From assembly GCA_942159475.1 (NCBI GenBank), contig OW804095.1, forward strand, positions 156,038,788 to 156,102,787: a stretch of DNA of 64,000 nt. Direction: 5' to 3'. Below the pieces are notes generated by a model. That model was not told the DNA's origin, searched no databases, and saw only the letters and a list, made by a program, of their open reading frames with translations. This document shows, piece by piece, positions 1,772 through 54,116 of the stretch; within the stretch, counting starts at the first letter, position 1; every line of letters starts with the position of its first letter. The position numbers were made by a program, and so were the translations under genes. Source of the stretch: Sthenelais limicola. Lineage: Eukaryota > Annelida > Polychaeta > Phyllodocida > Sigalionidae.

Positions 1772-2834
1772 AAGGGGCCCTCACGAGAAGCGTAGTGAGG
1801 GTCGACGGCAAGGCGCTTCATAATACCGCAATCCAAGAGAAGTATGAGAGTAGTGTAGAGATTGGGAGTAAAGCCCAGGCACCGCTTAGTACGCTCGGAC
1901 GAATCCCAGGTGTGGACAACTCCGAGTCGAAAGGTGGAGAATCTAGATCGTTGCCGGACGGTAAACTCTTTCAAAGGTCTGTACTCCTTTGAGAAGTCCG
2001 GAGGATGACCCTAACATACGATGGGGGGAATCCGGATTCCAAGCTGAAGAAGGGCAGATTTTAATGGTCAAGAAGAACCGTAATAAACCTGCCAAGATTC
2101 AGAAGGTTTCTGTGCTACGAAAGGAAACTCTGGAGATCCCGTCTAAGTTATTAGTTCGGGAGAGATGGTATGCCCCAGTACTAGTAGGTGGGATGAATGG
2201 ATTCTTTTTGGTTGATCCTGGTGCTACTACCAGTTTGATCACTAAGAAGTTCTATGATTCCCTTCCACATCCACCACCAATGGTTTCGGTCCGAACGGTG
2301 TGTGCGATGGGAGATGGAACACCTATTAATACTTATGGTAGCGTGCTATGTCCGTGGAATATAGGTGGACGGACCTATATGATTACATGTCTCGTTGTCA
2401 GTGGTCTACAAGGCCCTGAGGATGGGATACTCGGTGCAGATTTTTATTATGTGCATCGATGTAGTCTTGATTGGTCAGGATTACTTTACTTGGATAACTA
2501 CGGTCATTCCGTGAGTTGTAAACTCTGGAAGAGACAAGGTAGTGGTAAAGAAAAATCCTCTGTGAAGGCGGTGCAGGTCGGAAACTCACTTGCAGGTATA
2601 GAGGTGACACTCAAAAGAGGTGTAACCCTTGTACCCGGCAAAGTGACTCTGGCCGAATTAAACATTCACGGTGGCTCAGACACATCGGATGGATTGATGT
2701 TCGAGCCAGACCAAAAATTACTAAGTGACTATGCCTTGGGAAGCTTGAATACGTACGTATCAAGTGACGGGAAACCGGCTGTGGTGGCATTTAGTAATCC
2801 GTCCGGGTGAGCTATTAAGCTCGGAAAGAGGAGA
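1690..2834 (+). pseudogene. gypsy-1 pol, protease segment
   Basis: N-terminal part of Pol with the retropepsin-like aspartic protease that matures Gag-Pol. The active-site loop is FLVDPGATTSLI near 2215; most family members have DTGA or DSGA, so the proline is unusual, but gypsy-2 has the same residue, so it is a lineage trait rather than decay. A second protease hallmark, ILGADFY, follows. The open frame shifts between about 1960 and 1990, whereas gypsy-2 stays in one frame. A TGA at 2808-2810 stands where gypsy-2 has CGA (Arg). The linker after it continues in the same frame. Confidence 0.85.
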
Positions 2835-13732: not shown

Positions 13733-14745
13733 TTGAATTGAATTGAATTGAAAAACATTTTTATTCAGACACAAGCTGCATTGAGGGGGGTCTCCGGCAA
13801 AATGGGAGGTATCCTTGGCCGTCATGATTATTGTTACAATAGTATCAGGTAGCAGAGAACAATACTGCCCCCTTCGATGAAGGGAGTCAGCTCTCGGCTA
13901 TTATTGTCATATTTAAAATCTACAGTGTTTTCTTTTGAATATGGCGTGAATATCAATCAATGGTATCAAAATAGTATCACTGGTATCAAAATAGTATCAC
14001 TCGAGAGGGTGTTTCAGTTATTACAGTAACATGAGCATTTATAAAAATAGGTTATATTACAATCTGGTAAGTATGTATATCAAGGTTGAACAAAGTAATC
14101 ATCATTCCAGATCAGGTTTGCCCTGGCGAGGGTTTTAAATCTGTCTTTATCGATGGTTAAGTGGGCCATAGTCGGCAGGTTGTTCCATGCATGGGGGATC
14201 GTGTTGGCTATTGACTTCCTAAATTGTTCTGTTCTTGGGTGTATTTGTTTTAGGATTTTACGACCTTCTCTGAAGTTTCTAGTATTTAGTACCCATAGAT
14301 CGATATTTGCAGGAACTTGTGCCAATCTATGACCCATTTGCAGGAGGTGCAGTCGCCTGCGATATTTGAGGAGGAGGAGCCTTTTTTGCAAGTGTAAATC
14401 TCTAACACTCTCTCTTGTGGGGATTTGATAAATAATTCTCAAAATTCTGTTTTGGAGTATTTGTAGGCGGTGGAGGTCCGTTGCTGAATGTGATTCCAAA
14501 AGGAAATCTGCCTGGTCAATGGTCGGCAGTACCATAACTTTGTAAATCATTAATAGTGTTGATTTGGGCAATTTCTTACTAAGTTTTGCGAACTGCCAGC
14601 ATTTATAATTCATAGAATTTATTAATTTGTTAGTTTGTTCTTTAAATTTTAGTGTCGCATCAACAACGGTCCCCAAGTATTTATAGGTGTCTACATCCTC
14701 TAGTGTCTCACCTCGAAATGTGAAATAGTGTGAAATAGTAATGAC
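13733..14745 (-). mobile_element. 5'-truncated LINE inserted in the 190-bp satellite
   Basis: Minus-strand LINE 3' end: the C-terminal part of RT, a 3' UTR of about 330 bp, AATAAA, then four TTCAA pentamers (13733-13752 on the plus strand as TTGAA). It splits a satellite unit that resumes after 14745. CR1/L2-like LINEs typically end in short tandem repeats rather than poly(A). The coding part resembles LINE-A. Confidence 0.8.
14080..14735 (-). pseudogene. LINE reverse transcriptase C-terminal (thumb) region
   Basis: About 215 residues starting in DVDTYKYLGTVVD, the conserved block after the RT palm, and ending IWNDDYFVQP with a stop. LINE-A has the same landmarks (DVDDYKYLGTVVD; NAIWADDNFLY), so this is a truncated relative. 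The upstream endonuclease, fingers and YADD palm are absent, so it encodes no active enzyme. The remaining frame is open. Confidence 0.8.
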
Positions 14746-15100
14746 TTCTTTGTGTAGTCATATGAACTAAATGCTCATCTATAATATCTAATATAGTTAA
14801 GAGATTTTATAAAATGATTGGGTCGAAATATGTTAATTTTCATGTTGATTACTGCCTCATTTCTGGGGGTGCTAACATTAGCCCTCTAACCATTGACTTT
14901 GAGGTCCTGTGTGACCATATAATGGCTCAAAGTATGTTAGGTTGTCAATAATAAACACTTATCCATGATATCCGATCAAATTGAACATATTTCAATAACA
15001 AATCTAGTTAGAATATGTATCTATCATCTATTTGATTACCGCTACATCTGTTTGGCAAGGGGTGCTATCGTTAGTTATCACAGTGGTGGGTCACGGAATG
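14746..15100. repeat. Satellite, about 190-bp unit, right block
   Basis: Continuation of the same satellite after the LINE insertion, with markers at 14865 (GGGGGTGCTAACATTAGCC) and 15058 (GGGGTGCTATCGTTAGT), 193 bp apart. Confidence 0.7.
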
Positions 15101-31628: not shown

Positions 31629-32727
31629 TTAATATAAGAAATTGTCATCAGCCCAGATAGCATTTGATTTTGCGAGTTTGGCAAATTTGGGTGCTGTATC
31701 CGAGGTATGAAGATTTGTATCTAGTGAGTTCCAGTAAAATGGGATTTTATAATAAATTGATTTCCTAATTTGCTCAAGTCTAGGAGTAGGGCACTTAAAG
31801 ACAATTCTACCTGGTAGGTGTTGTCGCATTTGTCTTCGCTTCTCTGCGATTAAGTTAACATTTCTTTTCAACCGGAAAGCCTGCTGGAGGATATGTAAAC
31901 TTCTTCGTTCTCTCAATGGGAGCAGACTGAACTGCTGGTGAAATTCGTCCACATTCTGGAATCTATTTGTACGCATAATAATTTGGAGGGCTCCATTTTG
32001 TAGTTTGTGGAGTATTGAGTTTAGATTTGTTGGCTGAGTCGTAGAAAATGTCGGATTGGTCGAAAAGGGGGAGAACGGCTGTCTTGTAAATTTGAGCACT
32101 AAGGTTAACGTTCAGTCTGCTCCTAAGGTGTCTGAAAAGTCACAATTTATGCGAGACCTTCTTCTTAACACTCTTTAGATGTTTCTTGGACTGAAGGGGA
32201 CCGTCAACGACCGTCCCCAAATACTTATAGTCATCTACATCCTCAAAATCCCTAGGTCCTAGCATCAGTTTGTGATGGGCTGAGTCGGTGTTCCATTTGG
32301 ACCTCATGGAAGGCTTGCTGAAGAATGCCATTGTTTTGGACTTGTTTTCATTTAGCGAAATTTTATTATGATTGAAAACAGGATTGGGCCGAGGGTAGTT
32401 CCCTGTGGTATGCCACAGGAGATGAGTTGGCTATTGGACGTAAGATTATTGATAGTCACATGCTGACGCTGTCCATGGAGGTAATCCCTAAACCAAGCAA
32501 GCTCATCACCCAAGACGCCAACATGTTCCAATTTTTTAAGCAAAATTTGGTGGTCTACAGTGTCAAAAGCCTTCCTGAAGTCCAGAAACACCGCTCTACA
32601 TGATAACTTATCATTGATGGCTCCATAGACCTCATTGAGGAATGAGACAATCGCATCACTGGTGGAGAAACCTGATCTGAAACCAAACTGTTTATTGTAT
32701 AAGATGTTATTGTTCTCAAGATGTGCC
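31629..32727 (-). pseudogene. LINE-A, 3' half: RT remnant with internal deletion
   Basis: Minus-strand LINE RT. From 32727 downward: NKQFGFRSG, FLDFRKAFDTVDHQ (catalytic motif A), CGIPQGTTLGPILF (motif B), then a jump to NENKSKTMAFFSKP and DVDDYKYLGTVVD. The YADD motif and its surroundings are deleted at about 32360-32390, so it cannot be active. The C-terminus ends NAIWADDNFLY at 31629 after at least one frameshift near 32100. The first base belongs to the same codon series that ends at 47580 in the 5' half; the two are one LINE split by element X. Confidence 0.88.
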
Positions 32728-33025
32728 CAACGATCCTATAGCTACACAAAGATATACAACTCCCTGACCAACTGTGTGACGTCCCACACATAGCGCCCCC
32801 TAGAGGAATCGGTGGCACGGTGCCGTGGCACGCCCGTAGGCCTGGCCTACAGTAGGCAAGTTTCTGCAGCATCCTATGCTTATTCTTCCTGGATTACATT
32901 CAGCATTAAGATATTCCAAGAATAGGACCTTCCCATTATGAGTAAGCTTCATTGGGGTTTGGATGACACCTAGAAATAAAGCTAAGAGGGCGGGAGTCAC
33001 ATGCAGCATCGCCAGTGAGTGGCAG

Positions 33026-33140: not shown

Positions 33141-33165
33141 TTCAATTCAATTCAATTCAATTCAA
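33141..33165 (-). repeat. LINE-B pentamer tail
   Basis: Five TTCAA units on the plus strand (TTGAA in the LINE sense). The polyadenylation-like AATAAAG is directly before it in the sense direction. Such tails prime reverse transcription in CR1/L2-type LINEs. Confidence 0.85.
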
Positions 33166-33695
33166 TAATTCTTTATTGCTGATGTTTTTACAATAAGGTG
33201 GACCAACAATCTAAGTAAACATGTGTTTAGTTAGTTCTTCCATTGGGTGCCTGAATTTTGTTTTGAGTTTTCTTTTGTTACTCTATTTGCACTACAGTGT
33301 TCTATGGTTACTACAAGGTTATACAATGAAATGACAATATGGATGAAATGGGGTATGGGTTTATGGGTATTATACATATGGTGTCATCCCTGGGGATGGT
33401 TCCAGTGAGTATTGCCTTGTTGGCAGAATCTCTGATAATCAATTAATTCAGGTGAAGTATATTTAAGTATTGTGCAGCTCAGGTGGTATGGTATCTGGGA
33501 CGGGGTGTGGCACTAAAACAAGTTACCTCACTCGGCCCAGGGTAAAGTAAAGAGAGAGAGATAGTTGGGGCATGGATAAGGTACTAGAACAAGTTGCCTT
33601 TCCATGCACCCGACACCCCCAAGGGGGGTGGGTGGGGGGGGGGGGGGGGTACAGTCACCAGGGATGTGATTCAGGGTGTGTGTTTGTGTTTTGGT

Positions 33696-36656
33696 TTATG
33701 CAGGTCTAAAGGGCGATAGGGTTTTTTCTGTGTATTTTTTGAAAGCATGCTTGTCCTCAATTTTGTGCGCCTCGGTGTGGAGTTCATTCCATCGTTTTTG
33801 GCATTTGTAGATCATTGAATTATTGATTTTGGTTAATTTTGACGTTAGGACTAAAAGGTTTTTCCTACCAGGGGCATGGCTCCTGGTGGCTAGTTTTTTG
33901 TTGTCTAAATTGTCTGGATTTTGTGCAAGGTAGAAAGACATATCCAAGATGTGTTTATCCCTACGTGCCTGTAGGGGCCAAACATTTAGTATTTTGTGTT
34001 CATTGTCAACGTTCTCATATTTTGTTTCATTGAAAATTATTCTGAGGGCTCTATTCTGTTGTGATTGCAGTTTCTGTAATATTGATTTGGGGGCAGAGTC
34101 ATATATAAAGTCGCAGAAGTCTAAATTTGGAAGAATGGCCATTTTATATAGATCATGTTTGGCTTTAGTTGTTAATGATTCCCTCGCCCTGTAGAGTAGC
34201 CTGATTTTTGCGTTTACTAGGTTAAGGGTATTTTTTGTGTGTGTTTTGAAGGTTAGTTGGTTGTCGAGTGTAAAGCCAAGGTATTTGTATTCGTGTATGT
34301 GTTCCAGGGTCGTTTGTCCTAGAGTCAAGTCCTTGGCAAGAGACATTTGGTTTTTCAGGGCCGTGTGAGATAGGGCAAAGGATATGATTTTACATTTTGT
34401 TGTGTTGAGTGATAATTTGTTTACTGTGCACCAGGAGTGTACATTATTCAGGTCTTGTTGTAAATTGTGATGTAGGTTATTGTTGTCTTTGTTGTTGTAA
34501 AATAGAACGGTATCATCCGCATAATGCTGGATGTGGGCGTGTTTGACCACTGAGTGTAGGTCATTGATGTATATTGTGAATAGTATCGGGCCCAGTATTG
34601 TCCCCTGGGGTACTCCATAGGTGACTGTACCTTCTTTAGAGTTTAGACCATTTAGCTGCACAATTTGTTTTCTTTCCGACAGGTAGTTTTTGAACCAGAG
34701 TTGCTCCATACCCTGTATTCCGTAGACTGCCAGTTTGTCTAGAAGAGTCTGGTGGTGAACTGTATCAAAGGCTTTACTAAAGTCCAGAAATACTGTTTTG
34801 TTCATGAGTTTGGAATTTAAATCTGTGTAAATTTTCTTTAAGAAATCAGTTTGGGCTTGTTGTATTGAGTGGTCAGATCTAAATCCATATTGTGATTTGT
34901 TGAATAGTTGATTAGATTCGAAGTGGTTATTGATTTGTCCCTGTACTGTTTTCTCTAATATTTTTGCTGGCAGTGAGATACAGGATATGGGCCTGTAGTT
35001 ATTACATGACATTTTCTCTCCTGTTTTGTATATGGGGGAGACTCTGGCTACCTTGAAAGAAGGAGGAACATTTCCAAGAAGTAATGACAGATTGATAATA
35101 TGAGTGAATTGATTACATAGTGATAATAAACATGATTTCAAGATCTTTGAGGGAAGGTACTCAATCCCAGAGTTCTTAGATGCATCCATCTTTGTTATTG
35201 TTTTGCGAACTTCCTGGGTGGAAACTTCGCTGAACCTAAAGATTTTTGGGGAGTTTTGGCTCTCCATGTAGGATAACGGATCTGTAGGACTATGCGGGAT
35301 TTTACTGGCTAGGTTGGGGCCAACATTTAGGAAAAAGTTATTGAAGGCATCTGGGACTTCAGATGGGTCTAGCATTCGATTGTCTTTTTCAATGTTTATT
35401 AGCGTTGATTTTTTAGTTTTTTCCGGGCTTATAATTGGGCGTAGAAATTCCCAGTATTTTCTCGGGTCTTTGTCGAAAAATTGCAGGTTTGATTTAATGA
35501 AAGCAGCCTTCGCCGATTTGCAACCTCGGTTGGCTCTGTTTTTTAGAATTTTGGCTTGTTTTAATAGATCTGGGTCCCGTCCCTTCCTAGCCAGTCTGAA
35601 TAACCTATCTCTTTCATTCATTACTGAGATCAGGTCATCCGTCATCCATTTAGGCTTTGTACGGACATTCCTGAACTCCTTAAGGGGGCACATTCTATCG
35701 AGATACATATTAATGTTATTAAGTAAGAATTTCCAACAATCTTCTGGGTTGGGGTTGTTATAAAACTCGCCCCAGTCCAGGTTTGTCAGAATCTCATTGA
35801 GAACTCTCTGATCGAATAGTCGTGTGTTTCTGGCCCAGAAGGTTCTAGTTTCATATCTATTTCTTGGTTTTTTGCGTACCAGAAATATGGGGAAGTGGTC
35901 AGACAGGTTGACATTTATAGTACCAGCTTCGGTGACATGTGGGGAGTTCGAGTAGAGGTGGTCTATTATCGTGTTTGATTTCAGAGTTGATCTAGTTGTT
36001 TGCTTAATGAATTGTGTCAAAGAGAAAGAGTTTGCCAGGTTTTTGACCTCCATTGAGAGGGTAGAGTTAGAAGATTCTATTGTTTGGTAGTCTAAGTTAA
36101 AATCCCCCATTAGGTAGAGTTCCTGGGATATGTCAATTTTGGATAAAATGCTTTTGAGTGTCTCAATAAACGCTTTTGTACCTCCGCTTGGGGGCCTGTA
36201 AAGATTGAGGAGGGTGCATTTCTTAGTGAATCCCTTTTTAATTTGGATAACCTGAGCTTCAATATCCTTATTTGAGATATTTAGCTCTTTGTATAATTCG
36301 GAGTCAATGGTCAGGTGGTTATTCAGATACATACATAAGCCACCTCCTCTCCTTTTTGTCAACCTGTCTAGCCTATACAAATTGTAGCCCTGGAGTTGTA
36401 TCGTGTTATCATGTACAGAATGACTTAACCAGGTTTCGCAGAAGCCTATTACATCAATATTAGTGTCATCAATCAAGTATTCTATTTGGTCGAAATGTTT
36501 GTAGAGGCTCCTGATATTCCAGGAGATTATTTTGATGCCTTTAAGTTTTTTGATTTCTTTAAATGATTGCAGGAGAGTGCTGCCTATTTGTGTCTTAATT
36601 TTGGTGGTGTGTGGGGTGAATGCAAGGGCTAAAACAGTGCAACATGCGGGCTCCAA
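33696..36656 (-). CDS. LINE-B ORF2, endonuclease-reverse transcriptase (intact)
   Basis: A 986-residue protein for target-primed reverse transcription. Endonuclease motifs in order: SWNIRSLYKHF, GFCETWL, RGGGLCMYL, LYRPPSGG, GDFNLDY, and LSDHFPIFLV. RT motifs: NYRPISCISLPAKILEK, YGFRSDHS, FLDFSKAFDTVHHQ (motif A), GVPQGTILGPILF (motif B) and HYADDTVLFYNN (catalytic YADD), then EYKYLGFTLD of the thumb. All expected catalytic residues are present and the length is normal for CR1/L2 LINEs. No RNase H domain is seen. The first 35 residues are not conserved-looking, so the start may be the Met at the frame opening or slightly further in. 414 nt separate it from the esterase ORF, so translation may depend on reinitiation or its own transcript. 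Confidence 0.93.
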   Translation of the reverse strand: MEPACCTVLALAFTPHTTKIKTQIGSTLLQSFKEIKKLKGIKIISWNIRSLYKHFDQIEYLIDDTNIDVIGFCETWLSHSVHDNTIQLQGYNLYRLDRLTKRRGGGLCMYLNNHLTIDSELYKELNISNKDIEAQVIQIKKGFTKKCTLLNLYRPPSGGTKAFIETLKSILSKIDISQELYLMGDFNLDYQTIESSNSTLSMEVKNLANSFSLTQFIKQTTRSTLKSNTIIDHLYSNSPHVTEAGTINVNLSDHFPIFLVRKKPRNRYETRTFWARNTRLFDQRVLNEILTNLDWGEFYNNPNPEDCWKFLLNNINMYLDRMCPLKEFRNVRTKPKWMTDDLISVMNERDRLFRLARKGRDPDLLKQAKILKNRANRGCKSAKAAFIKSNLQFFDKDPRKYWEFLRPIISPEKTKKSTLINIEKDNRMLDPSEVPDAFNNFFLNVGPNLASKIPHSPTDPLSYMESQNSPKIFRFSEVSTQEVRKTITKMDASKNSGIEYLPSKILKSCLLSLCNQFTHIINLSLLLGNVPPSFKVARVSPIYKTGEKMSCNNYRPISCISLPAKILEKTVQGQINNHFESNQLFNKSQYGFRSDHSIQQAQTDFLKKIYTDLNSKLMNKTVFLDFSKAFDTVHHQTLLDKLAVYGIQGMEQLWFKNYLSERKQIVQLNGLNSKEGTVTYGVPQGTILGPILFTIYINDLHSVVKHAHIQHYADDTVLFYNNKDNNNLHHNLQQDLNNVHSWCTVNKLSLNTTKCKIISFALSHTALKNQMSLAKDLTLGQTTLEHIHEYKYLGFTLDNQLTFKTHTKNTLNLVNAKIRLLYRARESLTTKAKHDLYKMAILPNLDFCDFIYDSAPKSILQKLQSQQNRALRIIFNETKYENVDNEHKILNVWPLQARRDKHILDMSFYLAQNPDNLDNKKLATRSHAPGRKNLLVLTSKLTKINNSMIYKCQKRWNELHTEAHKIEDKHAFKKYTEKTLSPFRPA

Positions 36657-37069
36657 CTCGAGTTCAACAATTTAGGAGCATAGATTAATAGTGTATTTAG
36701 GTACAGAACATTACACTCAGTTACGCTTTACAGGACATGTATATACAGAGGTTATCAAGTCATTCTTAGGTATATATATCATAACAGCTATATGTGGCAG
36801 CCTTTGCTTTAGACATTAAACATTAATTTCCTCAGGGATATTACAGGTACAGATATATATGTAAAAAATGTAACTATTGTACTAGAGGTATAAAACGTTA
36901 AGGTAGTTTGTATACTAGAGGTATAAAACGTTAAGATAGTTTGCATAGTTAGTGCGGAGTGTGAGGTCAGTGGTTATTCGGCCACCCTCTAGGCATAACT
37001 AGTGTGTGGGGTACTAAAACAAGTTACCCTTTTTCTAGAGAGTGAGGGGTAACCAAGCTCCAACCAACC
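36657..37069 (-). other. LINE-B spacer between esterase ORF and ORF2
   Basis: No frame. It has a 33-bp direct repeat starting TACTAGAGGTATAAAACG at 36880-36912 and 36913-36945, differing at two positions. The TATAAAA core is on the plus strand, antisense to the LINE. Confidence 0.6.
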
Positions 37070-37732
37070 TCATTGTTCCAGTGAATTGTTGTATGCCTTG
37101 GCAATAGCTTTTGCCCAATAGTCTTTAAGCTTGTTGGATATGTGGGCATAATTGTGGGTGAAGGTGCTGTTATTGGGGTGATAGCGGTGTATCAGTCTTT
37201 GTGTCCAAGGTGTGGGTTGATTATTACTTTTATTGAAGTCTTTGATTATTGTGATGGCTGATTCCACTTGGTTGTTTAGTTGAGGTTGTGCTGGATCCAG
37301 GGGGATGTCGTCTGTGGTTATTATGCCCCTCTGCAGGTCTCGTCTCATGTTATAATGGCCAATGCTCATACCTGTGATTGGTGCATATACGATGTTGGGG
37401 GGCCGGAGTGGGTGAGAATGTCCCATGATATATTCGTGTGAGTCCTGTAGATCTCTCTGCAGCGCTTCAGATGTGGTCTCAATGGATGCGCTTCGTAGAC
37501 TGACCACGCCTGTGGTCCTGTCCTTTATTGTTAGGTTGCAGAGACCTGCTGTTATGTATACGTGACTTGGAGTATAGCGTTGTAGCTTCCCGGTTGCGTG
37601 TTTTACTGACTGTAATATCGGTGCACCTGGTTTAGATGAGACTACTATTTGTACCCTGTCATTTATCAGTTTCCTAAGGGGTGAGGCTAGGGAGTCAGCC
37701 CTCGAGTCCCCGATCAGCATGATTGTGTCCAT
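37070..37732 (-). CDS. LINE-B SGNH/GDSL-esterase-like ORF
   Basis: A 220-residue protein. LIGDSRADSL (residues 6-15) carries the nucleophile Ser10 of a GDSL/SGNH hydrolase; ITAGLCNLT (60-68) is the block-III-like segment; the C-terminal stretch HNYAHISNKLKDYW offers His197, where the catalytic His normally sits in a DxxH, here NxxH. Many CR1/L2 LINEs fuse an esterase domain to ORF1; here it is an independent ORF between ORF1 and ORF2, in a different frame from ORF1 and 98 nt after its stop. The Asp-to-Asn position leaves activity open. I am confident of the fold family, less so of catalysis. Confidence 0.75.
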   Translation of the reverse strand: MDTIMLIGDSRADSLASPLRKLINDRVQIVVSSKPGAPILQSVKHATGKLQRYTPSHVYITAGLCNLTIKDRTTGVVSLRSASIETTSEALQRDLQDSHEYIMGHSHPLRPPNIVYAPITGMSIGHYNMRRDLQRGIITTDDIPLDPAQPQLNNQVESAITIIKDFNKSNNQPTPWTQRLIHRYHPNNSTFTHNYAHISNKLKDYWAKAIAKAYNNSLEQ

Positions 37733-37830
37733 TCCTCGTTCTCAGTGAGCGAAAATATAGTGAACCAGCCGATTCAGGCTTGATTAACAGGGAAATCTTA
37801 TAGGTAGCCTGTATATTGCCACGTTAGAGG

Positions 37831-39897
37831 TTAACCAGCAGATAATTCTGCTTTAATCTTACTCAGAATCTTTCCGCATAGGTTTTTTCCGGTGAAACCG
37901 GATGATTTTAGTTCAGACCTTTCTCCCTTCTTGTTTACAATGCGTGGGAGATTCAAGTCGGAAGCCCACTTCCAGTCGGAGGTCATTTCGTATAGTTCCG
38001 TGGCTTGAATATCAGCGAGTTTTTTCTGCAGCGTTTCATTCTGAATGAACTTCTTCCTTATTATTTCCTCGAGTATATTTTCCTCCATTTTGGCCCATTC
38101 GTCATTTGTTTTTAGCTCCTTCCTCGCTTTTGCTTTGACGCGATATGGGTTCGGCATTTTCCGGATTTCCTCGGCTATCTCCGGTCGACCTAGTTGTGTG
38201 GCCTTGTTTGCCTGGAAGGCATGCTCAACCGAGGTGTATGTATGATCATTGTGGAGTATCGGTGTTGGGTAGAAGTTCGACATAAATGAGTGCTCACTCT
38301 TGAAGCCAAGCCCTTTTCCACCATCTATTCGTACCAATCTGGCATCTTCAGGTCTACATCCCTTTGGAAGTTTGGATAAGTCCGCCTTCACATATGATTT
38401 TGGCTCCTCGTCAGCTGTGAATACAACGATGTGGCTGCCACGGTGCTCGGCTTTAACCTTTGCCAGGCGTAGGAGGCGGTGACAGTCCCTGAGAAGATTA
38501 TAATCGTGTGGGGGAATCAGTAGGCCTTGTTGGTTTACCTCAATATTATCGAATCGATGGTCCAGACGACGGATATCCGGGATTTTGTTGGCTATAGCCA
38601 TGAGTATGTCATTTGTAGCCGCGCGGATCAGAACTGGCCTCGTTACTAGGAGACTTTTGTGACCAATTCTATAAACTGCTCGGAGGTCGTTGACATTATA
38701 TTGTGGATCCACATGAGTGTATATACCTTTGACTGTGTCGATAATGTCATCATCCCCAAGCTCTGCAATGTTATCAAGGATGAGTATGTTTATGTGCTTC
38801 GTAAGTCGACGGGCTTGGTGATGTGTTGACGGCGCCTGGGCCTCTCTACCCGGCGGGCCGTTTGCCCAAGCACCCCTAGGACGTTGGAGTGGCCTAGGGT
38901 GGAGGTGTGGCCTAGTGTTGTACTTGCCTCCATTCATATGCACATGTGGATTACCATTATTAGCTGCTGCCCTCTGAATGTTAGTGAGCCTATTTTCAGT
39001 GAACTCTTTTAGATCATTGACTGATGAGATGATTTTCTCAGCCTCCTTATCGCTATCAATACTAAGAGATTTGAGTTCTGTTCGTAGCGCCTCTGGTGTA
39101 ACTATCGATTCAATGGCTTTCTCCATCCTGGATAATCTGCCATTGAACTCCTTCGAGAGCTTCTCAACCTCAGTTTTAATATCAAGGAGGCCTGAATTAA
39201 CTTCTGCCATTGATAACTTCATAGCTTTGTTTGATTCTGCAATACAGGCGGTGACAGTGGATGATATTATTGGTGCTAGCTTTTGGCTTATAGCCTCCAG
39301 CAAGGTGTCATGGCCTACGACGGGTGGAGGGGTATTGCTGTTGGAATTATCCAGTATATCATTGTTGCAATTATGTGAGTTATCCGTTTCACCCCCTCCA
39401 AGTCCTTCACTGTCATCAGGTTGGACTTGCATTGGAGATATGGAGTGAGTTGTATCTGGACGGCGAAAAAGTGGACTTGCATCAGGACTGTGTGTCAATG
39501 GACTTGAAGGTGGACTAGACGGAGGTGGACTAGACAGCATCTCTCGTACCAGTGTGCGATGTACAACAGGACTTTCGTAGGCTGTTTCAGAGGCTGGTAT
39601 AAATAGATCTGGTTCCTCGACGGTTTTGTCATTATCAGGTAAGGGATTCTTATCTTCATTGTCTTCGTTATTTGTATTTTTGAATGCTATCTCCGTCTTG
39701 TCAGCTGTGCTGGAGGGTTGTTGGCTTATGCTAGTGTTATGTCTACCGGTATTTGTCTTTAGTTCATGTCCCACAACAGGGGTGGATGTAAGGATTTTAT
39801 CATCCATATCATCCAAGTAATCTAAATCATCCTCTTTGCTTACACCCGATCCAAACAGTCCATTGATCACTGTTGACATAATATTAGACTGTGACAT
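37831..39897 (-). CDS. LINE-B ORF1: coiled coil, RRM-like domain and C-terminal NADAR/YbiA-type domain
   Basis: A 688-residue ORF1 protein, expected to bind element RNA. Residues 1-190 are acidic, Ser/Pro-rich and disordered. Residues about 195-320 are helical and heptad-like, probably an oligomerising coiled coil. Residues about 370-500 look like the RRM-like part of LINE ORF1 proteins (NILILDNIAELGDDD, VYRIGHKS, RPVLIR). From residue 532 to the end is a domain I recognise as NADAR (YbiA-like): FMSNFYP (538-544), SVEHAFQANKA (556-566), KKFIQNETLQ, DWKWASDL (641-648) and GFTGKNLCGKILSKI (667-681) match the family in order and spacing, including the Glu of SVEH. NADAR proteins act on N-glycosidic bonds of ADP-ribose-type or riboflavin-pathway substrates. 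Its role in a LINE is not known to me. The whole frame is intact. Confidence 0.85.
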   Translation of the reverse strand: MSQSNIMSTVINGLFGSGVSKEDDLDYLDDMDDKILTSTPVVGHELKTNTGRHNTSISQQPSSTADKTEIAFKNTNNEDNEDKNPLPDNDKTVEEPDLFIPASETAYESPVVHRTLVREMLSSPPPSSPPSSPLTHSPDASPLFRRPDTTHSISPMQVQPDDSEGLGGGETDNSHNCNNDILDNSNSNTPPPVVGHDTLLEAISQKLAPIISSTVTACIAESNKAMKLSMAEVNSGLLDIKTEVEKLSKEFNGRLSRMEKAIESIVTPEALRTELKSLSIDSDKEAEKIISSVNDLKEFTENRLTNIQRAAANNGNPHVHMNGGKYNTRPHLHPRPLQRPRGAWANGPPGREAQAPSTHHQARRLTKHINILILDNIAELGDDDIIDTVKGIYTHVDPQYNVNDLRAVYRIGHKSLLVTRPVLIRAATNDILMAIANKIPDIRRLDHRFDNIEVNQQGLLIPPHDYNLLRDCHRLLRLAKVKAEHRGSHIVVFTADEEPKSYVKADLSKLPKGCRPEDARLVRIDGGKGLGFKSEHSFMSNFYPTPILHNDHTYTSVEHAFQANKATQLGRPEIAEEIRKMPNPYRVKAKARKELKTNDEWAKMEENILEEIIRKKFIQNETLQKKLADIQATELYEMTSDWKWASDLNLPRIVNKKGERSELKSSGFTGKNLCGKILSKIKAELSAG

Positions 39898-40090
39898 GAT
39901 GTGTTGGTCAGTATACTGGTCAATTTAGGTACAGTCCTTTCAGCGTTTAGAATTCCGACTCCCACGGTCACTGGAGGTGTGGGCGATAATGTGTGCCGAC
40001 CTGGAGTGGTCAGCCATTAAACTCCAGCGTTGACCACGCTTGGTATATATATCAGTCTTATTGAATGTTCACTTAGGCGATTGTGTTGTG

Positions 40091-40296
40091 GTGTATCATT
40101 CAACGATCCATGTATATTAACAATGAAGTCAATAGTATCCAATCATTGTTGCAGTTGTTTTAGCCCTTGCAAAATGCTATTTTACTGCCGAGTGCACTGA
40201 TACACGTGCATACTCGGCCGTCGAGTGTTGGCACAGGTTAAAGCATTATATGGATATTTTGTTTCTCCTGCCTTTCCCATCACCACAAATCATCAA
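40091..40296. other. Segment between LINE-B and LINE-C
   Basis: About 200 bp that I cannot assign to either LINE; it may be LINE-B 5' UTR or element X core. No gene. Confidence 0.4.
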
Positions 40297-40752: not shown

Positions 40753-42360
40753 TCAGTTGTTAAATTCACAATCCAAAAATCGTTCCCAAAGAGCCTGCCG
40801 GTAGTGAAAAGTTTTTTTTTTATAGTTTTTTTTAACTTTTCCTGAACGATTTTTCCAGATAGATGTGAATGATCTGTCCCTATTTTCATTCCAATGGAGT
40901 ACAGCTAATTGGGACCTGGTTTTGTATTGATCATCTCCAAAAACAATTCGTTTGTCCTGAAACATATTCATTGTGTTATTAAATGATTCAACATAGAAAG
41001 TGTCTTTCCCCCAGATGAAATCTACAGCACCTTTGTAAAGGGTACTGCTTGAGATAGCTTTCTCCAGGAGTCGGGCAGCCACTGGATCTGTGATTACAAT
41101 TCTGGAGGGCTCATAGTTAGGATCCGTTTTGCACCTTGACATGGGGCTGCATTCGTCATGATTGTTCTGGTAATGGCTGACAGAATTTAGCAGTAATTTT
41201 CGAAGTACATCTTGGTTTTTGTCACAGTTATTGATCGCATAATAAGCATGATTTGCTACAGGTGTAACCTTATCTTCTAGCTGTCTGTGCCAGGAGCGGC
41301 CTTCATTTTTCTTGGCACCTTTAGAAATATCTGTGAGCCTCTTCTTTAGACTTTTTATGGCATGCCATGGGTCATTCTGGTTGATGACATTTTGTTTATC
41401 CTTTACATATTTGTTTACTGACATGTTCCTATCATGGGTATGAATCCTTACAGGTGTTTGCTTTTCAGTAAGGTAATCATAGGCCCACTCAGTGCCAAGC
41501 CTCTCATGTCGTTGAGTCACTGGATCATCTGTTTTTGTGACATGCACATGCTGAAGTACCTTGTGCGTTTTGCCTCCAATTACTACAACACTGGTATCCT
41601 TTGCATTCTTCCTCCATCCATGTCGAGCATCAGTCACAATGTTAATTCCTGGTTCTTGGTCATTTCCCTCTTCCATAACACAGTCCAATGCTATTTCTTC
41701 CTGGAGTGCGGCTTCAATATCCTTCTTATACAGTTGATTTACTGCAGGGATGAAGGTGTTCTTTTGGTAATTCCTCCTCACAGATTCATGCAGCGTTTTC
41801 ATTCCAGATCCCTCTGTAAATCGCTCATAGATACTGGGAAGCATACCACTACAAGCTAAACCATGTTGTATCCTTTCATTCACAAGGTACTTTCCAGATG
41901 GAAATTTGGGGGAAGATACCCAAAATCGGCTGTGCTTGAATTTCGCTAGTCTCCTACAAGTGAGTTTTGCAGTCATCACATGTCCTAAGAATGTTGATTT
42001 CTGAATGGATATAGGTGATGTACAGCATCCTCGATGGTCCTCAACCAGTTCGATCAGTTTCTTGATGGACGTTTTTGTAGTCACAAAAAGCTCCTCTCCC
42101 GCATCCTCTTGTTTGATAATCTGACTCTCAGAACTTGTCATGCTAGAGGAATGGTGCTTTTGCTGAAGCCAGTAATCAAAGACTGCATTGAGGATATCCC
42201 CATGAGTCACAGTTGCTGATCCTAGATTTGTGATCAATGCTTGTCTCACAATATCCATCTTCCCACGCAGGGTATCTTTGACACTAATGTCACCTGGTAT
42301 TTCAAGTTTAAAACTCGGAGCTCTCTCTCTAGAAGGCATTTTTAGTTTGAGGGTTGTCAC
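40753..42360 (-). CDS. Kolobok-like DDE transposase (intact)
   Basis: A 535-residue transposase that would cut and paste its own element. Residues 110-190 have the family-type segment before the catalytic core (CTSPISIQKS, KYLVNERIQHGLACSGMLP). The core shows VTDARHGW with Asp244, HTHDRNMSV with Asp310, NQNDPWHAIKSLKK (328-341), an HAYYAINN block (371-378), VSHYQNNHDEC (394-404) and YVESFNNTMN with Glu458, giving a D-D-E triad. Order and spacing match Kolobok transposases as I know them. There are no frame breaks. The C-terminal 50 residues are strongly basic. The start is the first Met, 20 bp or so from nothing better upstream. Its divergent partner is at 43488. Confidence 0.85.
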   Translation of the reverse strand: MTTLKLKMPSRERAPSFKLEIPGDISVKDTLRGKMDIVRQALITNLGSATVTHGDILNAVFDYWLQQKHHSSSMTSSESQIIKQEDAGEELFVTTKTSIKKLIELVEDHRGCCTSPISIQKSTFLGHVMTAKLTCRRLAKFKHSRFWVSSPKFPSGKYLVNERIQHGLACSGMLPSIYERFTEGSGMKTLHESVRRNYQKNTFIPAVNQLYKKDIEAALQEEIALDCVMEEGNDQEPGINIVTDARHGWRKNAKDTSVVVIGGKTHKVLQHVHVTKTDDPVTQRHERLGTEWAYDYLTEKQTPVRIHTHDRNMSVNKYVKDKQNVINQNDPWHAIKSLKKRLTDISKGAKKNEGRSWHRQLEDKVTPVANHAYYAINNCDKNQDVLRKLLLNSVSHYQNNHDECSPMSRCKTDPNYEPSRIVITDPVAARLLEKAISSSTLYKGAVDFIWGKDTFYVESFNNTMNMFQDKRIVFGDDQYKTRSQLAVLHWNENRDRSFTSIWKNRSGKVKKNYKKKTFHYRQALWERFLDCEFNN

Positions 42361-44381: not shown

Positions 44382-44397
44382 ATGATGTGCCCGGCCT
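44382..44397 (-). repeat. Kolobok-like element, right terminal inverted repeat
   Basis: ATGATGTGCCCGGCCT on the plus strand, followed by TTAA. Reverse complement of the left end apart from one base. Confidence 0.9.
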
Positions 44398-44401
44398 TTA
44401 A

Positions 44402-46032
44402 ACACTTTTAATTCCACTGAGGGTCTGAAGACAGGTATGGATGCAATAAATTATGCAAATAATTTCTTCGCACAAATTGGATCGAATAACCTTGCTATTG
44501 CACCGAACCCTGTGGTTGTAAACAATGGTGTTGTCTTTGATATCCAACCGAATGTGACTGATTTGGAGGTTGAAAAGGTGGTAAAGAACTTTGATGTCAA
44601 CAAGAGCTCTGGTTTTGTAGATCTAGACTCTAGGTTGTTGAAGACGGCTCTTAGTGTATGTATTCCTTTTTTTACCGCTTTTCTGAATATCATCATTGCC
44701 AAGGGTATTATTCCTTTAACATGGAAAAATGCTCCGGTCATGTTGATCCCTAAGAAAGGGGATACCATGGACATTAACAATGTGAGAGCTATTACTCTGG
44801 TGCCCATGACTAGTAAGGTCCTGGAGAAACTCATCTAAGACAAATTGTATAATTTTCTGGAAGATTCCAATTTTTTCTACCAGAATCAGTACGGTTTCCG
44901 TAAGGGTATGTCCACTTCTGACGCTTTGTTTGATGTTCAGGAAACTATTATAGAAAATTTGGAAGAAAGAAAGAACGTGGTTGCCATCTATTTCGACATA
45001 TGCAAAGCTTTCAATTCGGTAAACCATGTTTTGCTTCTAGACAAACTACAAAATATGGGTCTAGGACCAACTCTAATTGCTTTGATTGAAAATTTCTTGG
45101 AAAACTGAAAACAATTTGTCAAGAGTGGGAACCTGAGATCCAACATGCTGGGGGTCAGCAGTGGGGTCCCCCAGGGCTCCCTGTTGGGCCCTCTTTTATT
45201 TAACATCTTCATAAACGATCTGGTTGCCGTTGATTTCCCTGGGAAAATTCTATTGTTTGCCAACGATGCTGTAGTTCTGGTGCAAGGGGACAACATTGTG
45301 TCTTTGCACAGGGATGCACAGAATTCTATAACAAAGTATTTGGACTGGTGTCAAACAAACAAACTACAAGTAAATGCAAACAAGACTTTTTACCAGATTT
45401 TTGGAAACAAAAAAATGGCAAAAAGTTTTGGTGATTTAAACTGTCTAGGGAAAACCTTGTCAAGAGTGCAAAATTTCAAATATCTTGGCACAATTATCAG
45501 AGACGATCTATCGATGAAATCCCATTTAGAGAGTCAAATGAATTCGGCCAACTGGAAAATCGCCGATCTAAGGAGGAGATGCAAATACATGACCCCTGAC
45601 ATTTGTGCCAGGCTCATCAAGACATACGTCCTCCCAATCTTAGAATTCTCCAATTTCCAACTTCTAAGTGCAGGTAAATGCTCAAAGAAGCGAATCCAAC
45701 GTGTTTGGCAAAAAGCCCTCCGGCTTGCCTACGGTAGCGAAAAAACAAATATAGAATTGCTTGAAGCCTCTGAGATTTTGCCTATGGAAAAGAGATCCGT
45801 AATTTCTGTGATGAAACTTCTCTTTGACAGAAAACAAAACTATGAAACCCTCGAAAACAATCAGTTTCCCCTTAGAAACAGGGAACCGGGTATGATTAAA
45901 AGAGCAAAGAAAAATTCTATGCGGGGCAGTGTCTTTTACAAGGGTAAGAAATTGTGGAACAATTTGCCTATGTTTTTAAGGGTGCAAGTGGACAAGAATA
46001 TCTTTGTAAAGGATCTGAAAAGTGAGATGTAG
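44402..46032 (+). pseudogene. LINE-C reverse transcriptase, right-hand piece, two in-frame stops
   Basis: RT of the LINE-D type in one frame. Blocks: NVRAITLVPMTSKVLEKLI, NQYGFRKGMSTSDA, AIYFDICKAFNSVNH (motif A), SSGVPQGSLLGPLLF (motif B), then LLFANDAVVLV where YADD should be, so the catalytic second motif is FAND. The thumb has NFKYLGTIIRDDL. A TAA at 44836-44838 and a TGA at 45106-45108 interrupt the frame. The element is dead and older than the Kolobok-like element within it. Confidence 0.88.
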
Positions 46033-46872: not shown

Positions 46873-47579
46873 CAACAATCCTATAGCTTCAATACAATAT
46901 AAGTACAAAAATTCATGATAATTAATAAATAGTCAGAGAGATGGGTGATAAATAATTAGTAATAAAAAGTAATACAAGTATTTTGAATACATGAACCCTA
47001 GAATAAATCTACATCCTCTACACACTAACGTAAGCATAGTGTGGACTTTGCAGCCTCAAAGCAGGAGTTTAGGAAGACGTTTAATTCAGAAACTACTTTA
47101 TGTCACTGCTCCAACCTCACAAAGTATTCGCTAATAAAAGGATTTACATTTTGATAACCAATCTCTTGATACACAGACCAACGCAATACAAGAAAAAAAC
47201 CCACAACTAATCTCTGACCTGATAGGCCTGCTGCATGTGGTGACATCGCCGCCATTTGTTTTGCAAAAAGATCCGCATAAATATGGTCACAGTTTAATAA
47301 TAACAATGCGACTGGCTTTCTAAATTCGGGAAATAGATTGGAATGATGTCAGGCAAGTAATCATGGGTGAGAGTCCTGAATTTAATTGTTGATATTCCAT
47401 GAATATCAACAACCACTGCTTAGTGTCCACCGAGTCCCCATTGACGGCAATGCTAGCGCAAACACCCTACCACGGACTCTCCTAGGAGGCGCTAGTGTTG
47501 GCGCCTGTTGGCGCCGTCACGCTCCCGCCTATGGCGCACGGCAGGAGTTGTATATATTTGTGTAGCTATAGGATCGTTG
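46873..47579. repeat. Right-hand part of element X with an internal X-type end
   Basis: CAACAATCCTATAGCT at 46873 faces the true right end at 47579, so the 707-bp interval has X-type ends on both sides. Flanks GTTAGAG (left) and ATGTGCC (right) do not match, so it is not a simple separate insertion. It holds a perfect 10-bp stem hairpin GTTGATATTC/GAATATCAAC near 47390-47412 and no gene. Confidence 0.6.
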
Positions 47580-48850
47580 ATGTGCCATAAGTTTCTTGTG
47601 GATGACCTTTTCTAGTATCTTGGCTGGAAGGCATATGCTAGTTATAGGTCTATAATTGCCAGGACTTATAGGGTTGCCTGATTTGAATAGGGGGGTAACA
47701 CGACCAAGCTTCCACCTCTCTGGAATAAGACCACTTTCCATTGATAGTTCAATTAAATACTTAAATTGGTCTATTAAGGTGAGTAGAATTTTCTTTAATA
47801 GTGGGGTTTTTAGGTGATCAAGGCCTGAGGATTTATACTGGGGCAAGGAGTGGATTACTTGGCGTAGGTCGTTGATTGGAACTCCATCAAATTGGAAGGG
47901 AGGATAATTAGGGGCTAGCCCACTATTATCTGTAAATGTAATCAATTCTGGGGGGGTGAGTGGAGTTATATTATTGGCCAATTTGGAGCCAATGGTTGCG
48001 AAATAGGTATTGAATACATCAGGAATATCTCCTGAGGCAATGCTTACGCCATCATCCTGCTCCAGCTGTATGAGGTCTGAGTCACAGGTTTTTTCTGGGC
48101 TAATCATAGGTTTGACCTTGTCCCAAAATTTATGGGGATTTTCAGAGCATTCAAGTAGTGAGTTTTTGATATGCTCATTCTTTAGTGTTTTGGCCATTTT
48201 ATTGACCTGCTTTCGGAGAAGTTTAGCTCGGTTGAGCAGTTCAGCAGATTTAAACCTTTTGGCAAGTTTGAAATATTTATCCCTTTGTTTCATGAGGTCA
48301 AAAATCTCTCCATTAATCCAGTCACAGCGGGTACGTACATTCTTGAACTCTCTGACAGGACACATATGATCAAGAATGCGGTATATAAAGGACTCCATGT
48401 AGTCCCAACAGGTAGTGGGATCTCGGGAGCTATAAAAGTTGGTCCAGTCATGGTCTTTCATGATCTGCAAGAATATATTTTCGTCAAAGTTGGTAAAGCT
48501 TCTTGCTTTAAAGGAGGGTTTGGTATAAACACTTTTAAGTTTTTTTTCGGACGAGATAGATTGGGTTGTGGTCTGAAATATTAATATTCAATACTCCTGA
48601 TATGAGAATATGTTTGGAATTTGAATAGGCATGGTCAAGAATAGTAGCAGTTGAGGAGGTGGATCTTGTTGGCGTCGTAATATACTGTGTCAGTTGGTGG
48701 AGTTGAGCTAGTCTCGCTAATTCTTTAGAAGGAAGAGAACCATTGGCAAGTCACCAAGTAGAAATATTTCATGGTTAGTCGGTAACTTACTCAAAATAGC
48801 CTGCAATTGGTCAATTGCTTCAACATGGCGGCTTTTGCTTGGCTTTTGTG
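47580..48850 (-). pseudogene. LINE-A, 5' half: endonuclease end and start of RT, frameshifted
   Basis: Minus-strand LINE coding sequence. The open part (48470 downward) has DHDWTNFYSSRDPTTCWDY, the SARAKLLRK-like linker, PHKFWDKVKPMISPEK, and the RT start NYRPITSICLPAKILEK, stopping at 47580 where element X begins. Upstream, remains of the endonuclease are in other frames: SNFHYQAQKPSKSRH with EIFLLGD near 48770-48870 and NINISDHNPIYLVRK near 48560. So the LINE is 5'-truncated and frameshifted. It resumes after X at 32727. It resembles LINE-B but is clearly a different family member. Confidence 0.85.
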
Positions 48851-51184: not shown

Positions 51185-54116
51185 GTGTGTACATACATGA
51201 TGAGACAGATACCTACTATTGCAAGTCTTAATTGTAGGAGTCTGCGTAGATGTAAGGATGAGATAGCTATTCAATTTCTGGACAAAGGGGTACCAGTTTT
51301 AGCGCTAAGTGAGACTTGGTTGGACAGGAATGATAACACTAATCATCTTAGCCATATTGACTATGACTTAGTGAGACAGGATAGGGATGCAGTCACAGCA
51401 AAAAGAGGAGGCGGTTTGGCACTCTATATACGGAAAGATATAAGTAAGGTACTGATACTGTAAGGTACAATGGACTGAATATAGTGAATGATGCTGTCGA
51501 ATGTCTCTGTACGGATATCAAAATTGGGAAGTATGGAAAATTTACTTTGGTAAATGTGTATAGAAACCCAAACAGTCGAATTGCTGATTTTTTCAATCAT
51601 ATTGGACAAGTTATGACAAGATTAAATGAAGACAAAAAGAAAATTTTTCTGTGCGGAGACATCAATATCGATCTAATGAAAAACTGTAGAAACTCTGACA
51701 GGTTTAAGAGTTTGAGGAAAAAACATGATATGGATTGTAAAATAATACAGCCCACTAGAATAACAAGAACAACTGCCAGCTGCATAGACACAGTGTATAC
51801 TAACATGACCAAGTTTGTTAGTAAGGTACTACCACTACACATCTCGGACCACTATCCTATAGTCTCTGAGTTAACTGGTCAACATATTCCATTACGAGAA
51901 AGGTCTTATAAGTGGGTTAGAACTGGACGAAAGAACAAAATGAATGAGTTTTGTAACAAAGTAACGGATGAATTCGGGAACCAAATGCAAACGGTAGATG
52001 TTTTAGATCCAAATGAAAGTTGGGCCTCGATGTTTAATACAATTCTAAATACGAGTAATGAGGTATTTAAACCTCTGCGTGTTAGAGAAAAACATGAACA
52101 GTCGTATCTCGACGCCGAGGTGAAAGCAAAAATTAAAGAAAAAAATGTAGCATTTGAAACAGCAAGAAGATTGGGTACAGAAGGTGAATGGAGAAATGCC
52201 AAAAGTGTTAGGAGGGACTTGAAAATCTTAATTGAGAGAAAAAAGAAGAATTTCCTGGTTAATAAAGTTAACACCTCCCGACCAAATCCAAGAAAGTTCT
52301 GGAACTCTTTAAAAAACATTTATGAGCCAGTAGGGAAAAACAATGATCAGAAAATTGAAGAATTCAATACTACTGATGGTGTAAAAAAGGGTCTTGAAGC
52401 CTTGGAATATGCTAACAAATTTTTTGCAGAAATTGGCAATGAAAATAGACTTGGGGCTCCTCATCCAGAGTTTGCTAATGTTCCTGTGACTCTAGAGATT
52501 GTAGGAGATACTACAGAAGGTGAGGTACGACAAGTTATTGAAAGCATGGATGTAGCAAAAAGTTCTGGTTTTTCAGAGATTGACTCTCTGATTTTAAAGA
52601 AATCACTATTGGCTGGAATAAATCTGTTCACAAGGTTGATCAATAAAATTATCATCTCGGGAATAATACCTGTAACATGGAAAACTGCCCCGGTAGTGTT
52701 AATACCCAAGCAAGGAGATATTAAGAACATAGAGAATATCAGAGCAATTACATTAGTACCATTTACTAGCAAGATACTTGAGAGACTGATGTATAACCGA
52801 CTGTATGAGTTTTTGGAAGAACAAAACTATTTTTTTCAAGGACAATATGGTTTTCGAAAGGGTTTCTCGACAGCAGATGCTATTTTTTACTTCCAAGAAG
52901 AGATTTTTCAGTTGATTGAAAAAAATAAGGGAATGTGGCTGTATATTTTGATGTCCGAAAGGCATTCAATTCTGTGCCTCATTTATTACTTCTCGATAAG
53001 TTGCAGAAAATTGGTCTAGGTAATTGTTTTATGAGACTTTTGGAGAATTTTCTTACTGATAGATCACAGTATATTAGACATGAAAATTCCACCACTAGCA
53101 AAATTGATGTTAAGCATGGCGTACCCCAGGGTTCCTTGTTAGGGCCGCTGCTGTTTAATATTTTTATCAATGGTTTGAGTGCTGTAAACTTTCCAGGAAG
53201 GTTATTTTTGTACGCAGACGATGCAGTGGTAACAGTCAAAGGTGATACAGGTCAGAGCTTAAACAAAAAATGTCAAGATGTGATTGATTTGTACACTGAA
53301 TGGTGCAGGAGAAATGGTTTAACTCCTAATGAAAAAAAAACAAAATTCAATGCTTTGGATCTCGAGGCATAATAGCAAACTTTGGAAATGGCCAAACGGA
53401 AGACCTAAAGTTAGCACGACTAATTTTAGACTTGTATGTCCTTTTCATGTAAATGACGATATTGAATAAAAATTCTATATATATATAATGTTTCTTGCCT
53501 TGGAGCTATAGTTTGTAGAGAGAGAAATTTTAAATATCTTGGTACAACTATAAGTGAATCACTGTCTTTCAAAGACCACTTTTGTAAACAGGTACGGTCT
53601 GCTCAATGGAAGATTGGAGAAATTCGTAGGAGACGTAGGTACATGACTTCAGAAATCTGCCTGGGGCTGGTCAAGACCTATGTCCTCCCTCTCCTGGAAT
53701 TCTCCAATATCTTACTCCTAAATATGGGAGTGGGAATGAGGAGGAAGGTTCAGAAGACGTGGAATAGGGCACTTCGCCTAGCCTTAGACAGAGAGCTAAG
53801 TAACATCGAGTTGACTGAAAGCTCAGGACTGCTTCCTATTCTGGAGAGAGCGGAAATAGCATGTTTAAAGATAATACATATAAGACGAAGAAATTTTGAC
53901 CATGTAGAGCAAGCTTTAAATCTCAGGAATAGAGTAGGTCCTGTTCTACACGTTATTAGACCAAGAACAGAAAGAATGAGAAGAAGTGTTTTTTATACAG
54001 GGAAGGTTAAATGGAATGAATTGCCGTTAGACCTAAGACTGGAAGATGATCTGGATATGTTTATGCTAAAACTTAAGACTTGGCGAAACGATATTTACAG
54101 AGCAGAAATTGTTTGA
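51185..54116 (+). pseudogene. LINE-D endonuclease-reverse transcriptase, two frameshifts and an insertion
   Basis: Endonuclease blocks SLNCRSLRRC, LALSETWL and RGGGLALYI lie in the first frame (51185-51463). A shift near 51455 leads to LVNVYRNP, CGDINIDL, HISDHYPIV and the RT start NIRAITLVPFTSKILERLM in 51484-53019. Another shift near 52930 leads to VYFDVRKAFNSVPH (motif A), HGVPQGSLLGPLLF (motif B) and LYADDAVVTV (catalytic YADD) ending at 53372. About 100 bp of unrelated A/T-rich sequence at about 53370-53490 interrupts the next part, then FKYLGTTISESL and the C-terminus run to 54116. All catalytic residues survive across frames, so inactivation is recent compared with LINE-C. Confidence 0.88.

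Follow-up and report, generated by a model that had tools for sequence, protein, structure and literature searches.

What does a NADAR domain do at the end of a retrotransposon protein? This question is raised by a stretch of 64,000 nucleotides (below, the window) from the annelid Sthenelais limicola (assembly GCA_942159475.1, contig OW804095.1, positions 156,038,788 to 156,102,787, forward strand), which carries a copy of a long interspersed nuclear element (LINE). An earlier note on this DNA had proposed that the first open reading frame (ORF1) of this LINE ends in a NADAR/YbiA-type domain. The domain was placed correctly there, and the five peptides quoted from it occur in order; the frame is read from the minus strand, and stops are present on the plus strand across the ORF1 region.

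The NADAR domain of ORF1

The profile PF08719 matches the window ORF1 with 78.5 bits (cut-off 35.1; E=9.2e-22), i.e., far beyond chance, and two solved NADARs were matched from sequence alone (Escherichia coli YbiA, 2b3w, E=3.1e-6; Phytophthora NADAR, 8bau, E=2.1e-5). The AlphaFold model of the NADAR part (pLDDT 90.9) has the predicted alpha+beta fold of NADARs and matches the NADAR/ADP-ribose structure 8bau with E=5.8e-9. Residues E558, K565, K588, R592, W601, E637, D641 and W644 of the window copy agree with the published 8bau residues, and position R93 of 8bau corresponds to E605. The set reported to contact ADP-ribose in the P. nicotianae NADAR consists of E43, K50, R79, W89, R93, D130 and W133 (PMC11543638); six of these seven are retained in the window copy (R93 is changed), and the Glu that the YbiA subfamily has at position 125 is present as E637. 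It is thus virtually certain that the ORF1 C-terminus holds a NADAR domain. The profile search and the structure prediction that the earlier note had proposed as checks both gave significant matches. Profile, predicted fold, active-site residues and recurrence bear out that the domain is a NADAR, that it is of the YbiA subtype and that it is fused to a LINE ORF1. YbiA and 8bau share the fold and the E125-type active site with the LINE domain. However, they are separate NADAR proteins with ~25% identity to it; moreover, R93 is not retained in the LINE, and the LINE group of the window copy (group A, see below) possesses an additional 8-residue insertion ahead of the last NADAR helix, which the other groups do not have.

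Recurrence and conservation in this genome and beyond

The genome searched comprises 1.13 Gb. A search with ORF1 began with 5112 candidates, of which 65 were scored; these yielded 71 matching stretches, with identities from 98% (besides the window itself) down to 37% and with many open frames of >600 aa. With PF08719, 150 of 150 scored candidates lay above the cut-off (5561 at first look), i.e., at least 150 in this genome. The earlier note had regarded absence of the domain from all other copies of the family as the outcome that would speak against it. These 150 candidates, together with 58 full-length NADARs aligned from fetched loci (five LINE groups and one standalone ORF), refute a one-off capture or a chance similarity in a single copy, which we regard as practically out of the question.

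By best match, the 58 aligned NADARs belong to group A (the window LINE, 29 rows), B (11), D (9), C (6), E (2) and the standalone ORF (1); group A contains many near copies, and its rows are therefore not independent. Elements with ORF1 and at least a part of ORF2 were read for group A (window, L027/L031, L032, L033, L034), B (L035, L036), C (L037/L039), D (L065) and E (L042/L066). Their reverse transcriptase (RT) domains are ~29-38% identical between the five groups. The RT tree consisted of 11 rows, all from this genome. The RT of the window LINE carries the motifs GVPQG...LGPILF and YADD, which we take to be Jockey/CR1/L2-like rather than Tx1. In all five groups, an RNA-binding-type ORF1 region precedes the NADAR (by alignment and by eye).

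The active site is well conserved across these otherwise strongly diverged domains: K75, W89 and W133 are retained in all 58 rows, E43, K/R50 and E125 in 57 each and D130 in 55, making E43, K/R50, W89, E125, D130 and W133 near invariant. Furthermore, NADAR is the most conserved portion of ORF1. In the 45 pairs formed by ten group A families, NADAR averages 64.7% identity, the RRM-CTD-like region 54.7% and the N-terminal part 35.6%. The earlier note had also suggested comparing dN/dS across copies; in five between-family pairs with estimable dS (Nei-Gojobori), the NADAR ratio (omega) is 0.088-0.129, compared with 0.13-0.16 (RRM-CTD) and 0.21-0.43 (N-part) where estimable, all these values being rough, as dS exceeds 1 in most between-family pairs. 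NADAR is therefore under purifying selection between families. The LINE family has been active recently, since ORF2 is open in the window copy and in nine other near full-length copies at 99% identity (46 scored).

A further ORF, putatively SGNH-like, lies between ORF1 and ORF2 or overlaps them in groups A, C, D and E (motifs by eye), and an SGNH motif was not found by eye in the two group B elements read. The Pfam SGNH matches remain below the curated cut-off (window E=0.017; window and L002, E 0.015-0.017; L037, E 0.018), and the middle ORFs of L032, L042 and L065 gave no SGNH/GDSL match in Pfam. As none of the six ORFs given to Pfam reaches the cut-off, they are designated here as SGNH-like.

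NADAR also occurs in this genome in a Penelope-like element. There, a 553-aa ORF matches NADAR at E=4.2e-23 and GDSL/SGNH at E=1.7e-5 (25.8 bits, under the cut-off of 32.9); a 717-aa ORF with RT and GIY-YIG domains follows it. Besides the query copy, 19 near full-length copies of the NADAR-SGNH-like ORF are present at 97-99% identity, several of them in head-to-tail arrays with a spacing of ~5.8-6.0 kb. The RT + GIY-YIG ORF follows in all six further copies fetched (five in full length, L071 partially), i.e., in seven of seven including the first. At position 125, the NADAR of the Penelope-like element carries His, a residue also reported there for phage NADARs; this hints at a separate capture. 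SGNH esterases are already known from Penelope-like elements as well as from CR1 and RTEX elements (PMC3905857). The likeness consists in SGNH-type motifs in a retroelement; as far as that account goes, the differences are that the LINEs described here have a separate or overlapping SGNH-like ORF beside a NADAR-bearing ORF1, and that the Penelope-like element here joins NADAR and the SGNH-like part in one protein.

Outside this genome, the database protein P0001 (555 aa; its contig does not exceed 5443 bases) shares the layout of these ORF1s and shows 45% identity with a NADAR of group B; CTD-like stretches ahead of NADAR were seen by eye in P0002, P0003, P0005, P0006, P0016, P0027 and P0035. 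Groups A and B form one branch of the NADAR tree (95/87), followed by P0001 (93/88); the deeper branches are weak and do not tell one capture from several. Note also that modular and reticulate ORF1s have been described for the CR1 and L2 lineages (PMC4120745). The statement in the earlier note that no LINE with this domain had been described went too far: several Tx1 LINE families of Crassostrea gigas (Repbase) have been reported to carry a NADAR in their ORF1, as have Gypsy elements of Ectocarpus in Pol, with a suggested role in RNA processing (PMC12477816). The C. gigas LINEs share with those of Sthenelais a YbiA-family NADAR in ORF1. However, they are noted there just as divergent Repbase hits, whereas for the Sthenelais LINEs the present analysis covers ORF layout, active-site conservation, abundance and the SGNH-like partner. 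The Ectocarpus Gypsy lineage is likewise a retroelement with a YbiA-type NADAR, but it is a long terminal repeat (LTR) element with the domain in N-terminal Pol instead of ORF1; the blastp hits beyond Ectocarpus are reported to be almost exclusively bacterial (PMC12477816). No other account joining NADAR with a retroelement turned up among the papers listed by the literature searches, most of these having been covered without their full text, and we found no earlier account of the breadth (five LINE groups and a Penelope-like element), the active-site conservation or the SGNH-like pairing.

Some further NADARs of the genome stand apart. A standalone 160-aa NADAR ORF (L038:946-1428; G000:C1:94855245-94855727) matches PF08719 with E=3e-31, a 222-aa ORF beside it has no Pfam match at E<=0.1, and two further NADAR matches on C1 sit in 162-aa frames. 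In L043:309-917 (minus strand), a group B NADAR continues at its C-terminus as a second NADAR-like tail; this copy is probably chimeric. Among the database proteins, P0033 possibly represents a further retroelement type, its NADAR being preceded by two stretches that resemble zinc knuckles (by eye).

Possible function of the LINE NADAR

NADARs have been reported to reverse ADP-ribosylation of guanosine bases on DNA (PMC11543638) and to remove guanosine-base ADP-ribose from RNA, being inactive on phosphate-end RNA marks (PMC11833690). A clam enzyme, CARP-1, joins ADP-ribose to guanine N2; erasure of this mark by NADARs is treated as an assumption there (PMC11543638). Molluscs and cnidarians are among the groups from which NADARs have been reported, and what these proteins do in eukaryotes, animals included, was called unclear (PMC11125620). 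On this background, the conserved active site makes it likely that the NADAR is catalytically active in intact copies; removal of ADP-ribose is plausible, and we put the chance that guanine-bound ADP-ribose of nucleic acids is its main substrate at a little short of even.

We propose, with chances that we judge to be balanced, that a recently active, multi-copy LINE may use its ORF1 protein (ORF1p) to tether a NADAR glycosidase cleaving ADP-ribosyl-guanine to the LINE ribonucleoprotein (RNP). ORF1p would oligomerise through its coiled-coil-like part and bind LINE RNA through its RRM-CTD-like part, and NADAR would thereby be held on the element's own RNP. There it would hydrolyse the N-glycosidic bond of ADP-ribose (or of a close ribosyl derivative) to guanine in RNA or nascent cDNA. 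Such removal before or during reverse transcription would keep the template copyable, and the domain would thus shield the element from a guanine-modifying activity of the host. The SGNH-like protein of four of the five LINE groups and of the Penelope-like element would provide a second, separate accessory activity. The interpretation offered earlier, that the LINE removes ADP-ribose marks or counters a PARP-type defence, is partly supported, its observation being confirmed; the PARP-type defence is weakened by the reported action of NADARs on guanosine-base RNA ADP-ribose and not on phosphate-end RNA marks (PMC11833690).

Several results weigh against the proposed role. R79 is retained in 12 and R93 in 2 of the 58 aligned NADARs. 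In published work, mutating the equivalent of E43 had a mixed outcome, and catalysis did not depend on the equivalent of K75; furthermore, E. coli YbiA acts on riboflavin intermediates, i.e., substrates of YbiA-type NADARs can be small molecules (PMC11543638). No writer of guanine ADP-ribose was identified by a search of the genome for DarT homologues (0 matches; the control matched). As no DarT match stands beside at least 150 scored NADARs, the writer, if these NADARs erase guanine ADP-ribose, is something else. A Scabin-like search also gave 0 matches; its control was silent as well, so it is uninformative. Finally, the NADAR changes R642W and G647D, which adjoin D641 and W644, are private to the window copy (R and G in 28 of 28 other group A rows), and omega between the window and its closest copy L002 is 0.81 for NADAR, 1.22 for RRM-CTD and 0.14 for the N-part, based on very few changes. 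The window copy may therefore be decaying.

The substrate could instead be a small NAD or ADP-ribose derivative or signal, the NADAR then blunting an NAD-based host response. On contextual grounds, such a role has been proposed for NADARs of phages and considered possible for those of viruses in general (PMC9503650), and the pocket is described as flexible in the paper that also reports the riboflavin activity of YbiA (PMC11543638). Nevertheless, the position of the NADAR behind an RNA-binding-type ORF1 region in five LINE groups favours a substrate bound to nucleic acid, and for NADARs of eukaryotic RNA viruses macromolecular ADP-ribose was preferred (PMC9503650); we consider the small-molecule role unlikely. 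A role in RNA metabolism, in which NADAR would tie the element RNA to the cap-binding/trans-splicing machinery and so aid export or expression of the multi-ORF transcript, has a precedent in nematode SNA-3. This protein has three NADARs, works in trans-splicing, contacts the CBC-ARS2 complex (CBC, cap-binding complex) and is impaired by mutation of residues homologous to critical ones of YbiA (PMC9303266). Such a role could also bear on how three tandem ORFs are translated from one LINE RNA; however, SNA-3 is reported to be nematode-specific, and we hold this alternative to be quite unlikely. The variation at the R79 and R93 positions, the loss of E43, K50 or E125 in one row of 58 each and the Asn replacing D130 in three would fit a non-catalytic RNA-binding or RNP-assembly module of which the fold alone is kept. 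The near invariance of E43, K/R50, W89, E125, D130 and W133, although the NADARs of the five groups are otherwise strongly diverged, makes this improbable.

Returning to the proposed eraser on the LINE RNP, a wider version of it can be formulated, which we regard as speculative and rather unlikely. NADAR, often with an SGNH-like esterase, would serve invertebrate retroelements generally as an anti-restriction module, having been captured or exchanged across several LINE groups, Penelope-like elements and (in brown algae) Gypsy, and would erase ADP-ribose from guanines of element RNA or cDNA; its spread would betray a host defence, so far undiscovered, in which retroelement nucleic acids are marked by ADP-ribosylation of guanine. 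If the proposal holds, ORF1p would gain a function of a new kind, a conserved de-modifying enzyme on the LINE RNP, and invertebrates might use guanine ADP-ribosylation to mark transposons. Should many NADARs of animals turn out to be parts of retroelements, the question would shift from host metabolism to the conflict between element and host.

Layout, state and surroundings of the window element

Features of the window LINE and of the Penelope-like element
Feature	Position	Strand	Remarks
Whole LINE copy, ~7.1 kb	33141..40216	(-)	5' end 40216; 3' end = (TTGAA)n-type tail ~33141-33166
ORF1, 688 aa	37831..39897	(-)	variable N-part with coiled-coil-like stretch, RRM-CTD-like part, NADAR
NADAR domain, ORF1 residues 534-685	37843..38298	(-)	PF08719 E=9.2e-22; 8bau mapping; model + Foldseek
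RRM-CTD-like region, ORF1 residues 381-519	38341..38757	(-)	
Coiled-coil-like stretch, ORF1 residues 219-300	38998..39243	(-)	weak sub-cut-off Pfam matches (Mod_r E=0.0018), no dedicated coiled-coil program
Middle ORF, 220 aa, SGNH-like (GDSR, GLCNLT)	37070..37732	(-)	
ORF2, 986 aa, apurinic-type endonuclease + RT	33696..36656	(-)	PF03372 E=1.2e-9, PF00078 E=3.3e-38
Penelope-like element with NADAR + SGNH-like protein	L067:76-3998 (G000:C5:128186975-128190897)		adjoins group D element read

The element has the hallmarks of a LINE, i.e., an ORF2 with endonuclease and RT located 3' of ORF1, a simple-repeat 3' tail and many copies. Its 5' boundary is common to L003 and L006 (within 1 base) and to L004 and L005 (within a few bases), and the flanks diverge there. 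Just two 6-bp matches were found between the flanks of the window copy, and no clear target-site duplication. Compared with Type II LINE ORF1p (human L1 ORF1p, 2yko), the window ORF1 has an additional NADAR and no Transposase_22 sequence match: PF02994 is absent among its Pfam families at E<=1, and L1 ORF1p is not found among the PDB profile matches listed (60 of 64).

In this LINE family, the middle ORF contains the SGNH-type motifs GDS, G-x-N-D-like and DxxH. A 21-bp in-frame deletion at 37144/37145 has removed seven codons of it in the window copy, including the Asp of DxxH. These codons are retained in all nine other close copies having that stretch (L002-L005, L007, L008, L010, L012, L024). 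The motif reads DGCH in nine of nine other close copies and DGCH or DGLH in 28 of 29 other group A loci having that stretch; in the alignment of the middle ORF it is present in 11 of 12 rows, the window row alone being without it. The SGNH motifs are therefore complete at the family level, with the Asp missing from the window copy. The earlier note had described an intact frame in an otherwise intact element; this stands for ORF1 and ORF2, both of which are open, but not for the middle ORF with its lost codons nor for NADAR with its private R642W and G647D changes, i.e., the window copy is not fully intact.

A Mutator-like transposase ORF (PF20700, E=2.5e-15; 40753-42360, minus strand) lies just upstream of the LINE 5' end, and pieces of an LTR-type element, with aspartyl protease, RT/RNase H and integrase each in its own frame, are found at 1989-5558 (plus strand). 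Other LINE-type RT pieces, several of them frame-broken, lie around the element at 44386-46029 and 51448-54113 (plus strand) and at 32143-32735, 47532-48587 and 14083-14757 (minus strand).
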